64,000 bases of DNA from Thermostichus lividus PCC 6715 (lineage in GTDB: Bacteria; Cyanobacteriota; Cyanobacteriia; Thermosynechococcales; Thermosynechococcaceae). The position numbers and the translations under genes were made by a program. The stretch is from assembly GCF_002754935.1 (NCBI RefSeq), contig NZ_CP018092.1:62001-126000 (forward strand). The letters are read 5' to 3'. Positions 19,960 through 43,876 of the stretch are shown here, one piece after another. Under the pieces are notes generated by a model, which worked only from the letters and a program-made list of their open reading frames with translations, was not told where the DNA came from and ran no database searches. Numbering within the stretch: the first letter of the stretch is position 1; each line of letters begins with the position of its first letter.

Positions 19960-20070
19960 ATGTCTCAAATTCTCACCGTATCTTGCAAACTGGAGGTGTT
20001 GCCGCAGCAGGCTGAAACACTTGATGCGGTGCTGGCTGCCGTTGCAAAATGCTGTGAGATCGATAGATAA
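19960..20070 (+). pseudogene. remnant of an IS605-type tnpB (first 36 codons)
   Basis: ATG 19960 reads MSQILTVSCKLEVLPQQAET followed by a short helix and stops at TAA 20068-20070. This pattern (an xVSCKLxV strand, then PEQ-like residues and an A-rich helix with a CC pair) resembles the N-terminus of cyanobacterial TnpB proteins, which are normally about 400 residues. Nothing recognisable as TnpB follows. It starts 22 bases beyond the end of element copy 2 on the opposite strand. The match is from memory of the family and needs a search. Confidence 0.5.
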
Positions 20071-20145: not shown

Positions 20146-20241
20146 ATGCAACCCCCTAACCCCGACCAGTTTACCGACCTCACGGTACCTCTGGGCACGG
20201 GCAGCACCGAAGAAGTTTGGCAAAAACCGCTACTATGTTGA
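20146..20241 (+). CDS. possible 31-residue ORF upstream of the sigma-like gene
   Basis: ATG 20146 is preceded by CTAGGA and opens a 31-residue frame, MQPPNPDQFTDLTVPLGTGS and ending WQKPLLC. The first ten residues resemble the N-terminus of ClpB (MQPxNPxQFT) but the rest does not, so it may be a truncated gene start brought here by rearrangement, or chance. Low support. Confidence 0.2.
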   Translation: MQPPNPDQFTDLTVPLGTGSTEEVWQKPLLC

Positions 20242-20268
20242 GTAACAATTTTAGCGTTGCCTATTCGG

Positions 20269-21750
20269 ATGAGTCCCTCGACCCGCAGTCCTGACCTTGA
20301 GGTGGAACAACTCCCCCAGTTATTACAGGCCGCTCGTGCCCGCTATCTGGCCGGGGAGCGATCGCCAACGGTTGTCAAGCCTCTGTGTCAAGCCCTGCGA
20401 GCCATTTTAGAGCGCAGTATCGATCCCAATGGCGACAGCCAGCAACGGGGGGGCTACCTCCAACGCCTCGTTGAAGCCTATTTTCGCTTATTTCCCCGCT
20501 GTTTGGACGGTGTGAGCCGCACTCAACTGCAACAGCAATCGCTCCACAAAACCGTCCTGCGGCTGCTGCAAATTCCCGCTACAGTGATTCAGGATGAGTA
20601 CAATCGTCTCAATCGGGGACACTATAACGGCCCACTCAAACAACTGGTGCTAGCGTTTAGTCGGCCAGCGCTGATGCAGCGCACCCCACCCCCAACCCTC
20701 ACAGAAGCAGAGTGTTTTCTCGCCTTTTTTATTCAATGCTTGCGCCAAGAGCTGGGAGCCAGCGTTCTGCTGACCCCCCAATTTCGCCAAGAGTATCGGG
20801 ATCTGCTGCGCACCGTTTGCCTTGGCAGTGCTGACCCCGATCACTGTCAAAGTAATCTTATAGGATGGCTATGGGAAGCCATGAAATCCTTTGACCCGCT
20901 GAAGCCCTTTAGTGCCAGCGGCCATGGCCGACCCACCTTTGAAGCATGGGTTCGCACCGTTGTCAGCAATAAGCTGGCGGACGAAAAACGAAAACTGCTG
21001 AAACGGGAAGCGGATGAACTGCTATTTTACGAAAGCCGCGCCCTGCAAGTCTTTCAGGATCGCTACAGCGCATCGCCGCCAGAGATTCAGCGGGAGATTG
21101 ACCCCAAGGCCTGCATCAGCCTGATTACGATTGTGCAAACGGAAATTACCGATCCGCGCATCCGCGCCTCCACCGCTCGCCTGCGGCAGCACATCGCCCA
21201 ACTACTCGGTTGGAGCATTGAATATACCCGCGATGTCCATCAGCAGGTGCGGCGCATTTTGGGGCGTTACGTCCAGTCCACCCGCTCCTTGAATATTTGC
21301 TCCACTGATAGCAACCAAGAATGGATTGATAACTATCCTGATGCCCGCTCTCTACCCAGTAACAGTGGCCAAGGCATTGAATGTATGGTGGACTTTCTCA
21401 ATGATCCCCAAACCCCCACATGGGTACGGGACTGGTGTGAGCGGCGCCGCACCCAAGCGGAAATTGCCCGCGAACTCTTTGTGAGCCAACCAACAATTTC
21501 CCGTTGTCTGGGTCGTGAATATCGCCTCTGGCTCTACCGTAAATTCTTTCAAGATCCGCAGATTCCTGAGTGGATGAAACGCTGGTATGACACCCAATCA
21601 ATTCCCAGTCCCCATCAACGGCGGCAAACTCGACGGGAGATTCACCCCGAATATGCCCGTGGTACCTGCACTGCGAAGCAAATTGATGACCAAATAGAAA
21701 CCAAACTCGCCCAGTGGTGCGATCGTAACGGCATTTACTATCTTCCCTAG
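20269..21750 (+). CDS. sigma-70-like regulatory protein with C-terminal HTH
   Basis: 493 residues from ATG 20269; a TTG four codons earlier is possible. The middle part contains a region resembling sigma region 2 (NLIGWLWEAMKSFDPLKPF, FEAWVRTVVSNKLADEKRKLLKRE, about residues 200-250), and the C-terminal part has a helix-turn-helix (RRRTQAEIARELFVSQPTISRCLGREYRLW, about 390-420) like sigma region 4. The first 170 residues are helical and unfamiliar. It pairs with a DUF1822 gene 45 bases downstream, an arrangement I recall from other cyanobacteria. Target promoters are unknown, and it may not act as a true sigma factor. Confidence 0.65.
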   Translation: MSPSTRSPDLEVEQLPQLLQAARARYLAGERSPTVVKPLCQALRAILERSIDPNGDSQQRGGYLQRLVEAYFRLFPRCLDGVSRTQLQQQSLHKTVLRLLQIPATVIQDEYNRLNRGHYNGPLKQLVLAFSRPALMQRTPPPTLTEAECFLAFFIQCLRQELGASVLLTPQFRQEYRDLLRTVCLGSADPDHCQSNLIGWLWEAMKSFDPLKPFSASGHGRPTFEAWVRTVVSNKLADEKRKLLKREADELLFYESRALQVFQDRYSASPPEIQREIDPKACISLITIVQTEITDPRIRASTARLRQHIAQLLGWSIEYTRDVHQQVRRILGRYVQSTRSLNICSTDSNQEWIDNYPDARSLPSNSGQGIECMVDFLNDPQTPTWVRDWCERRRTQAEIARELFVSQPTISRCLGREYRLWLYRKFFQDPQIPEWMKRWYDTQSIPSPHQRRQTRREIHPEYARGTCTAKQIDDQIETKLAQWCDRNGIYYLP

Positions 21751-21795
21751 GCGGTTTGGCTCAGTTTCTCGTACTTGGTTTGGATAATAACTGCT

Positions 21796-22560
21796 ATGAC
21801 TTCTTTCTTGGCACCGGTTGTTCCCATTCGTTCCCTGACATTAGATGCCGCCCACGCCGTCCTCAAGGAGTGCCGCCCAAGCCGCCAGCAACAGGTACTG
21901 CCCTATCTTGTAGCTCTCTATACGTTTATTGACTGGTGGGAACATGAAGGGGTGCTGAGTAAGGCAGACGACTGGGAGGATGTGCCTCCACAACTTACCC
22001 TTAGTACAACATGGTGTGAGCGTCCAGATGTTTTAGATTTACTCGATATTGCGGATCTGAATTTGGAAGGGGTGCAACTGGCTCTTTATCCTGTAGAGCA
22101 AGGTAAGGCGCTAGAAATCCACTGCCCCACCTTCTTAGGGGTGGTGAATGCTGATATTGCGGTTGCTGTTGCCCTGGATCGCGATCGCCGCTGGGCACGA
22201 ATTCTCGGCTTTAGCGATCGCCAAACCCTCGTCAATCATTGGCAACAGTTCCCTGCGAATGCCCAAGGCTTCGGTACCTTTCCCCTAGAGCAACTGCAAC
22301 CCATTTACTATCTTGCAGAGCAAATTAGCTTCCTGACTCCGCTGCCGGAAGCCCCCCCCAAAGCTGCCCCCACCAAGGGCAATACCTATGGCGAGCCGTT
22401 GCACAACATTCCAGAGTTGGCCGCCTTACTACAAACCCTTGAGAGCGAGCCTCCTCTGGAGCGCTCCAGCATCGATCAAGCAGCGGTACAGCGTCTTTTG
22501 CAAGCGCTTCAGCAGGGCTATGGCACTCCGGCCTCGGAAACTCCCTTATCGCGGGACTAG
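21796..22560 (+). CDS. DUF1822 family protein
   Basis: 254 residues from ATG 21796, MTSFLAPVVPIRSLTLDAAH. The sequence (RQQQVLPYLVALYTFIDWWE, then a beta-rich segment with DLLDIADLNLEGVQLALYPVE) matches DUF1822, a cyanobacterial family of unknown function often found directly after a sigma-like gene, as here. It has no signal peptide or membrane segment; the C-terminal third is proline- and glutamate-rich. Its TAG stop lies in a CTAG that is also the stop codon of the convergent gene. Confidence 0.75.
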   Translation: MTSFLAPVVPIRSLTLDAAHAVLKECRPSRQQQVLPYLVALYTFIDWWEHEGVLSKADDWEDVPPQLTLSTTWCERPDVLDLLDIADLNLEGVQLALYPVEQGKALEIHCPTFLGVVNADIAVAVALDRDRRWARILGFSDRQTLVNHWQQFPANAQGFGTFPLEQLQPIYYLAEQISFLTPLPEAPPKAAPTKGNTYGEPLHNIPELAALLQTLESEPPLERSSIDQAAVQRLLQALQQGYGTPASETPLSRD

Positions 22561-42635: not shown

Positions 42636-43157
42636 TTAGTCCTGTTTGGCAGTATTGGTAGATGCTTCTGTGAGAGCAGAAGGGGCAGTCTCACTCACCG
42701 GAATTGCAACGGGAGGGCGATCGAGGCTGAGCATCAGGCCAACAGCTGTAGGTTCAACGGGTACAGGAGACACCTCTGGAGCAATGCTGGCAGGACTAGT
42801 CACTGCAATCTGTGATCCGGGGAGTGGGTTAGGGAGAAGCCCATTGAGAACACCCACCACCGATGCAGCTAGGGTGGCACCCACCCCTCCCCATACCCAC
42901 ACTGCGCGGGGGCGACGCTGCGCCTTGGCAATGACCCGAGCTGCCAAATAATCCGTAGGGCAAGGGGACACAGGCACGGGAAGTTGCTGCATTTGCACTT
43001 TTAGGGTTAACAGCCGCTGGTACAGTCGTTGAGCCTTAGGATCGCTGGCGAGCCATGCCTCCACCTGCTGTCGCTCCCCAGCCGTGACTTCACCATCGAG
43101 ATAGGCACTCAGCAATTCGAAGTGATCTCGTTTGCAGTGATCCAGTTCGTCCATCAT
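42636..43157 (-). CDS. anti-sigma factor for SigG
   Basis: 173 residues with a cytoplasmic N-terminal anti-sigma domain (ELLSAYLDGEVTAGERQQVEAWLASDP, about 15-41), one transmembrane segment (VWVWGGVGATLAASVVGVL, about 87-105) and a Pro/Thr/Ser-rich outer part. The zinc HxxxCxxC motif of many ECF anti-sigma proteins is absent, though an isolated HCKRDH occurs near the start. It follows the sigma gene by 53 bases, as in the Synechocystis SigG locus. It should hold the sigma factor at the membrane until an envelope signal releases it. Confidence 0.82.
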   Translation of the reverse strand: MMDELDHCKRDHFELLSAYLDGEVTAGERQQVEAWLASDPKAQRLYQRLLTLKVQMQQLPVPVSPCPTDYLAARVIAKAQRRPRAVWVWGGVGATLAASVVGVLNGLLPNPLPGSQIAVTSPASIAPEVSPVPVEPTAVGLMLSLDRPPVAIPVSETAPSALTEASTNTAKQD

Positions 43158-43210
43158 TGTTCAACATCCTTCATCAAAATCTAGCCAAAGCCAAGGTGTG
43201 GGGCAATAGT

Positions 43211-43876
43211 TTAGGAGCGGGGGCTGTCAAGGTGGGGTTGCAATTCCGTTTGCAGTCGCTGCCGAGCGCGGGCAATTCTTGATTTTACTGTTCCTAAGGA
43301 GACACCCGTGATCTGGGCAATTTCTTCGTAGGACAATCCCTCAATTTCCCGCAGGACAATCGTGGTTCGGAAGGTTTCCGGCAAGTTGGCGATCGCCTGT
43401 CGCAATTGGTCATAAAATTCATCGGTATGCAATAACTCATCCGGACTGGCATCACTGGAGGCGAGTTCCCATAGTATTTCCCCATCATGGGTCTTGAGGG
43501 GGGCATCGAGGGAGAGGGGAGCTTGGTGGCGCTTCCGTTTGCGCAGCTCATCATAGAATAGGTTTGTGGCAATACGGCTGAGCCAACCGCGAAATTTACT
43601 GGCATCCTGTAACTTATGAATATTCCGGTACACCCGTATCCACACTTCTTGTACTAAATCGGCTCGATCCTCCCAGTCCGGTGCCAAGTGATAGATCAGT
43701 CGCTCCACGTGAGCTTGATGGCGGCGTAACAACTCTGTAAACGCGGCTCGATCGGGTGATCTCCCCGCCTGACAGCGAATCACCAATTCCTGTGGTGAAA
43801 GTTTTGTTAGCGGCAGCGTCACCCGGTAACAGGTCTCCTCAACACTGGGCCAAGCAAGGGGGATACTGGATGTCAT
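43211..43876 (-). CDS. sigG: group 3 (ECF-type) sigma factor SigG
   Basis: 221 residues. Region 2 is DLVQEVWIRVYRNIHKLQDASKFRGWLSRIATNLFYDELRK (about 75-115) and region 4 is LPETFRTTIVLREIEGLSYEEIAQITGVSLGTVKSRIARARQRL (about 165-208), the ECF pattern. Gene order with a membrane anti-sigma protein matches sigG of other cyanobacteria, where it is needed under envelope or metal stress. The ATG at 43874-43876 gives about 30 extra residues before region 2, so a later start is possible. Confidence 0.88.
   Translation of the reverse strand: MTSSIPLAWPSVEETCYRVTLPLTKLSPQELVIRCQAGRSPDRAAFTELLRRHQAHVERLIYHLAPDWEDRADLVQEVWIRVYRNIHKLQDASKFRGWLSRIATNLFYDELRKRKRHQAPLSLDAPLKTHDGEILWELASSDASPDELLHTDEFYDQLRQAIANLPETFRTTIVLREIEGLSYEEIAQITGVSLGTVKSRIARARQRLQTELQPHLDSPRS

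Follow-up and report, generated by a model that had tools for sequence, protein, structure and literature searches.

A divergent sigma-like gene and the DUF1822 gene that closely follows it in Thermostichus lividus PCC 6715 very probably form a functional pair, and the first product, a protein of 493 residues, probably has a sigma-type function. On sequence comparison its sigma ancestry and its linkage to DUF1822 are well supported, whilst an inhibitory role of the DUF1822 protein towards its sigma-like neighbour, suggested by analogy, is given slightly less than an even chance. What is new here is a distinct clade of sigma-like proteins, a DUF1822 protein which lacks the C-terminal half of its family, and the predicted nuclease-type N-terminal domain of the latter, from which the catalytic residues are missing.

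The gene pair and its surroundings

The window, by which we mean the whole stretch of 64,000 nucleotides that was analysed, comprises bases 62001-126000 of a genome assembled as a single contig of 2,659,739 bases. The sigma-like gene occupies window positions 20269-21750 (+) and encodes 493 aa from the ATG at 20269, its stop codon ending at 21750; a longer frame, opening with TTG at 20257, is possible. The DUF1822 frame extends from 21775 to 22560 (261 codons, TTG-initiated), but the protein is likely to start at the ATG at 21796, giving 254 aa. The features of the pair are as follows.

20219..20268 (+), leader, including a 19-base stretch (20219-20237) conserved 5′ of the sigma-like gene within the genus, from an alignment of 11 upstream regions
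20269..20838 (+), N-terminal part, residues ~1-190, unmatched in Pfam and NCBIfam; helical in the model, for the most part at good confidence
20845..21006 (+), region 2-like block, residues ~193-246, with an ECF-like FEAW...N...DE.RK (likeness judged by eye), from the TIGR02937 match, ortholog alignments and a profile-profile alignment that begins at residue 192
21040..21282 (+), helical region at the place of region 3, residues ~258-338, from the helices of the model and the VIA rows aligned across it
21286..21342 (+), conserved region-3.2-like linker SLNICSTDSNQEWIDNYPD, residues 340-358, nearly invariant in 11 orthologs
21436..21549 (+), helix-turn-helix at the position of region 4, residues ~390-427, from Pfam, NCBIfam, ortholog and profile alignments and the model
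21568..21750 (+), C-terminal extension, residues 434-493, helical and conserved, of no named family
21796..22560 (+), DUF1822 gene; an alpha/beta domain takes up residues 1-185, the remainder is of low confidence and the C-terminal half of the family is absent, from the PF08852 match, the model, structural matches and comparison with a 431-aa homologue

The preliminary description, made from the letters alone, had seen a 493-residue protein with sigma region 2-like and helix-turn-helix parts behind a long unfamiliar N-terminal part, closely followed by a DUF1822 gene, and all of this was borne out by the frames and by the comparisons given below.

Upstream of the sigma-like gene, beyond ~570 bases, lies a glutaminase gene, and the 3′ neighbour of the pair is convergent and without a Pfam match. 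Four neighbours were scanned and none encodes a caspase or CHAT protein, nor was any other protease gene seen among the immediate neighbours; the window pair stands alone, unlike many of the short-type DUF1822 pairs, which precede CHAT/CHASE2 genes. The 19-base stretch of the leader occurs once in the genome when up to 3 mismatches are allowed, and being single-copy it names no regulon; a scan for promoters and terminators gave nothing beyond what its shuffles gave. A frame of 36 codons at 19960-20070 (+), 5′ of the sigma-like gene, resembles in our judgement the start of an IS200/IS605-type TnpB, and we take it to be a possible insertion-sequence remnant.

Sigma ancestry of the 493-residue protein

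The window protein reaches none of the curated cut-offs for sigma factors, whether of TIGR02937 or of the Pfam sigma models. TIGR02937 matches residues 197-414 with an E-value of 8.9e-4 (18.9 bits against a curated cut-off of 42.9), whilst Sigma70_r4 and Sigma70_r2 of Pfam give E-values of 0.062 and 0.12, both below their cut-offs. Modest when the protein is taken alone, the sigma likeness is made firmer by its relatives: TIGR02937 matches all 27 aligned sigma-like proteins at E ≤0.1, 16 of them from the window clade, and an hhalign comparison of 10 clade members with 23 DUF1822-linked proteins of a type of some 400 aa gave an alignment that covers columns 192-415 and is colinear across all of regions 2, 3.2 and 4 (E 5.7e-6, probability 85.5; this, like all pairwise hhalign E-values given here, is not calibrated on a database). 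An earlier comparison, which used another alignment, had joined residues 329-415 only to the DUF1822-linked sigma factors (E 3.6e-8). Judged by their sequences the 400-aa-type proteins are plainly sigma factors; their profile matches the region-4 part of FliA at E 8.7e-11 and, more weakly, other sigma chains at positions 77-147 (best E 1.7e-4) and 212-362 (E 0.0073).

Within the clade the region 2-like block contains many residues that are invariant in ortholog alignments of 11 and 10 sequences. The linker aligns with SINIPKAG..GELLDDLPD of the DUF1822-linked sigma factors and is partly missing in G048, a genome from another family. Region 4.1 of the window protein is shorter than in its relatives, and it is this, together with the N-terminal part and the C-terminal extension, which sets the clade apart.

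The predicted structure is helical with a mean pLDDT of 81.5, falling below 50 at residues 340-369, where the linker lies. Structure had been put forward in the preliminary description as a check for a sigma-type core-binding domain, and this check, though weak, did not go against one: each of the 50 matches listed by VIA is a sigma factor, judged by title and chain, with a best Z of 6.3 and mostly large rmsd, whilst Foldseek gave nothing significant, returning a mixed list with many unrelated helical proteins. A sequence search of the PDB with the clade profile yielded one weak helix-turn-helix match and two chance ones.

Distribution and conservation of the pair

The sigma-like gene was found in 15 of 39 related genomes, namely its own, 9 of the 10 others of the genus and 5 of the 12 others of the family, and in none of the 16 beyond, although absences in these genome searches are soft as only the best few first-look candidates were scored. 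When 290 genomes of the class were searched 15 matched in all, the one addition being G048, and the exact clade is narrow within the genomes searched, comprising one family and one genome of another family. Among the named genomes scanned, the sigma-like protein had its closest matches in two Thermosynechococcus MAGs, with 86 and 84% identity. A loose search of the phylum gave, outside the clade, only matches with E-values of 0.009 or worse; three of these distant matches were opened, of which proteins of 469 and 467 aa were set aside by eye and one of 401 aa was sigma-like.

Of the 16 genomes with the sigma-like gene, 14 have the DUF1822 gene next to it and in the same direction, and the gene neighbourhood, which the preliminary description had wished to see examined, is thus conserved. 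A single-sequence search of 29 genomes of the family with the DUF1822 protein gave 14 matches, 13 of them directly 3′ of the sigma-like gene; a weak match (E 9.4e-4) was obtained in G022, where the sigma-like gene was not found. The sigma-like gene of G048 is directly followed by one for a DUF1822 protein of full length (431 aa). By eye, the gene 5′ of the pair differs among genomes, and as this gene varies whilst the pair stays, the pairing is not mere synteny. Two genomes, G011 and G014, carry the sigma-like gene but have no DUF1822 gene next to it, nor was a DUF1822 gene of this clade found anywhere in them; each has one DUF1822 gene elsewhere in the genome, that of G011 following another sigma-like gene. 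As both keep the sigma-like gene alone, the DUF1822 partner is not indispensable. Neither gene was found in G006, which is ~90% complete.

For pairs with estimable dS, dN/dS lies between 0.062 and 0.079 for the sigma-like gene and between 0.078 and 0.155 for the DUF1822 gene, ratios which are rough because dS exceeds 1 in most pairs. Both genes look to be under purifying selection, and a decayed gene was rejected on the low ratios.

The DUF1822 family and its upstream genes

DUF1822 was detected in 93 of 146 genomes of the cyanobacterial class, with up to 13 matches in one genome, and in none of 14 well-known control genomes. At every one of the 29 loci judged in a first set (30 were returned; L099, at a contig edge, was left unjudged) the DUF1822 gene is immediately preceded by a gene in the same direction, which is of the longer type in 27 cases and short in two, and the same was found at 18 distinct lower-scoring loci, a hand-picked and non-random sample, which makes 47 of 47 in total. 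In this count L113, a repeat of L086, was entered once, L114 is an empty 10-base stretch, and at L071 and L088 the upstream and the main gene were assigned by eye. A co-directional neighbour is by itself common in bacteria, and it is for this reason that the sigma likeness of the upstream gene matters. With the near-duplicates L073, L081, L092 and L097 excluded, the scan took in 43 of the 47 proteins encoded upstream, and a sigma-family model was matched at E ≤0.1 by 37 of them, clearly for the 400-aa type and weakly for the short type. Within the first set, 23 of the 25 scanned proteins (two of the 25 being short) matched Sigma70_r4 of Pfam, and neither of the two short proteins of this set, at L096 and L100, matched a sigma model of NCBIfam. 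At the lower-scoring loci the upstream protein matches an NCBIfam sigma-family model in 14 of 18 cases (E ≤0.1) and TIGR02937 in 11; those at L101, L107, L115 and L120 match no sigma-family model at E ≤0.1, and the 457-aa neighbour at L120 is not sigma-like in appearance. An hhalign comparison of the short with the 400-aa type was non-significant (E 0.01, probability 4). The recurrence of the pairing in cyanobacteria, put forward in the preliminary description, is supported, whereas the exact clade of the window is narrow and two of its genomes are without the adjacent partner.

Downstream of the lower-scoring loci, 10 chosen proteins contain CHAT in 9 cases and CHASE2 in 7 (E ≤0.01), and for the 400-aa type no common downstream gene was seen by eye. 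At one locus TIGR02937 is matched (E 0.002) by a 319-aa gene 5′ of DUF1822 (L116:1088-2044), which also has a weak match to HetZ-related protein 2 (E 0.0037).

A second module of this kind is present in the genome of the window. At genome positions 317236-318723 (L001:601-2088) sigma-like and DUF1822 C-terminal parts are joined in one frame of 495 aa, behind which lies a CHAT-domain gene. Compared with a two-gene version in another genome (G010), the DUF1822 side is 67.9% identical over 221 columns and the sigma side 46.2% over 338, with ~1 kb missing between the parts. The module may have arisen by a deletion or be a fusion of natural origin.

The DUF1822 protein of the window

PF08852 matches the window protein at E 1.5e-5 with 24.6 bits against a cut-off of 25 (25.3 bits when neighbours in frame are included), the match spanning only positions 21-158 of the 370 in the profile; the G048 homologue scores 51.9 bits on the DUF1822 profile. 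Amongst the 13 clade members aligned, of 14 found, the C-terminal part is present only in the protein of G048. In a tree of 53 DUF1822 N-terminal domains seven proteins of the clade group together with support of 99/96.

The model has a mean pLDDT of 72.2 and is confident at residues 11-50 and ~91-180. All 50 VIA matches listed for the N-terminal domain are nuclease-type folds, nearly all restriction-endonuclease-like and three of tRNA-splicing endonucleases, entries which we take to share one superfold. The best has a Z of 8.3 (rmsd 3.2, 117 aligned), to be read against the 7 to 8 which this tool typically gives as its best for models without a clear match, the VIA rows being themselves drawn from the Foldseek ranking. 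Foldseek alone gave a non-significant best E of 0.17, with unrelated enzymes also in the top 50, and DUF1822 profiles found no match to solved structures by sequence, anti-sigma factors included. The motif of PD-(D/E)XK nucleases is D...(D/E)XK. In an alignment of 53 DUF1822 proteins, of which 24 rows were shown and in which motif residues were mapped by eye, the window clade has the Asp (ADLNL) and is without the Glu and the Lys; 15 short-type proteins all have the Asp and nearly all have the Glu, with Arg or Cys at the place of the Lys. From the model, then, there is about an even chance that the N-terminal domain is an inactive nuclease-like domain, and the window protein is probably not a nuclease; the fold predicted for it would be that of I-Ssp6803I, Hjc, PvuII and RecU, from which it differs in the missing Glu and Lys. 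Searched against Pfam, the 15 short-type proteins matched no nuclease family and gave single weak matches, such as HEAT; weak HEAT-repeat matches were seen in L001 and in one short-type DUF1822 protein.

Discussion

In the arrangement we favour, the first gene would encode a divergent sigma-70-family factor with an ECF-like region 2, a region-3.2-like linker, a region-4-like helix-turn-helix and extra parts at both termini, and the second a dedicated cytoplasmic regulator of it. The DUF1822 protein would bind the sigma factor and keep it off RNA polymerase or promoters until some signal freed it, as in the Csx30 model for CASP-sigma. What the analysis shows is the sequence relationship to sigma factors, the selection and the linkage, to which the second pair of this genome, fused in one frame, may be added; that the factor binds RNA polymerase, that the partners bind each other and that the effect is inhibitory we infer. 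Inhibition is favoured by analogy with the CASP-sigma/Csx30 system of type III-E CRISPR, where, according to PMC10028731, Csx30 binds and inhibits CASP-sigma and is cleaved by a TPR-CHAT protease. That system also joins an ECF-like sigma to a cytoplasmic partner gene, with CHAT proteases in the wider family, and CHAT genes follow many DUF1822 genes too; however, inhibition was demonstrated there and is only supposed for the window pair, and the likeness of DUF1822 to Csx30 is put here as an analogy. This explanation is weakened by the lack of the adjacent partner in G011 and G014 and of a CHAT or other protease gene among the immediate neighbours of the window pair. It is weakened further by the unreached sigma cut-offs, the short region 4.1, the weak structural matches and the lack of a sequence match between DUF1822 and solved structures, as well as by the four of 18 lower-scoring loci without a recognisable sigma gene upstream (E ≤0.1). 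Such loci leave the case for a functional pair as it was, since that is drawn from the 14 of 16 genomes of the window pair.

The DUF1822 protein could instead act positively, as a co-factor whose domain, nuclease-like but lacking catalytic residues, binds nucleic acid or polymerase and helps the sigma-like factor to particular promoters. The uniformly nuclease-type VIA matches point this way, as does selection on the gene despite the loss of its C-terminal half; a common fold, however, proves no function, the best Z is close to that typical of models without a clear match, and Foldseek alone was non-significant, so that such a role, derived from a model, appears rather doubtful. It is unlikely that the 493-residue protein is a helix-turn-helix regulator of sigma ancestry which has lost core RNA polymerase binding and whose binding to DNA is modulated by DUF1822. 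The shortened region 4.1, the 190 N-terminal residues of no family and the unmet curated cut-offs would fit a sequence that has moved away in this manner. Region 2 of sigma factors contacts core RNA polymerase, though, and the region 2 block is among the best conserved parts of the protein, whilst a nearly invariant region-3.2-like linker would be odd without the core.

The pairing as such was already in print, Kaur et al. (2021; PMC8195603) having reported genes for an ECF sigma factor and DUF1822 next to those for EACC2-caspases. In both cases the sigma-like gene adjoins the DUF1822 gene, but no caspase or CHAT gene was seen beside the window pair, and what that paper treats as a TPR protein has in the window an N-terminal domain modelled as alpha/beta and nuclease-like. 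A stand-alone remnant of such a caspase/CHAT conflict system, domesticated or decaying, would agree with the frequency of CHAT and CHASE2 in the downstream proteins of the lower-scoring loci, with the fused module and its CHAT gene in the same genome, and with the missing C-terminal half of the window DUF1822. This too we regard as improbable: a dN/dS of 0.06-0.16 speaks against decay, as far as ratios at so high a dS can be trusted, and as the 400-aa type has no common downstream gene, stand-alone pairs look normal.

Returning to a sigma factor with a dedicated regulator, a wider proposal would make DUF1822 a nuclease-fold protein which has lost its active site and taken on the dedicated regulation of sigma-like factors, a large class of them, in cyanobacteria; CHAT/CHASE2-linked and stand-alone pairs would be two wirings of one switch, and the window clade a stand-alone form whose sigma factor bears an additional sensory part at its N-terminus. 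In this full form the proposal is tentative and rather unlikely. Similar two-gene arrangements in cyanobacteria may constitute an unstudied gene switch, and if most DUF1822 copies govern their sigma-like neighbour there would be an unstudied layer of cyanobacterial gene control, for which the stand-alone pair of the window, in a small single-contig genome, offers a simple test case. A survey of cyanobacterial sigma factors (PMC11119718) demanded at least one seed domain and would have missed the window protein, which has no seed domain at Pfam cut-offs; another survey, which dealt with the regulators of thermophilic cyanobacteria (PMC10775510), has in the available text nothing on a sigma-like/DUF1822 pair, and in the literature searched PF08852 goes unnamed whilst DUF1822 is mentioned by two papers.

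Conventional pairs of ECF and anti-sigma factors share the two-gene layout of sigma and regulator, but the regulator in the window pair is DUF1822, of another kind, and the sigma-like protein bears ~190 N-terminal and 60 C-terminal extra residues. A likely conventional pair is found in the same window at 42636-43876 (-), where a 221-aa protein with clear sigma features, whose place in the genome scores 111 bits on TIGR02937, is followed by a 173-aa protein that is anti-sigma-like by eye.
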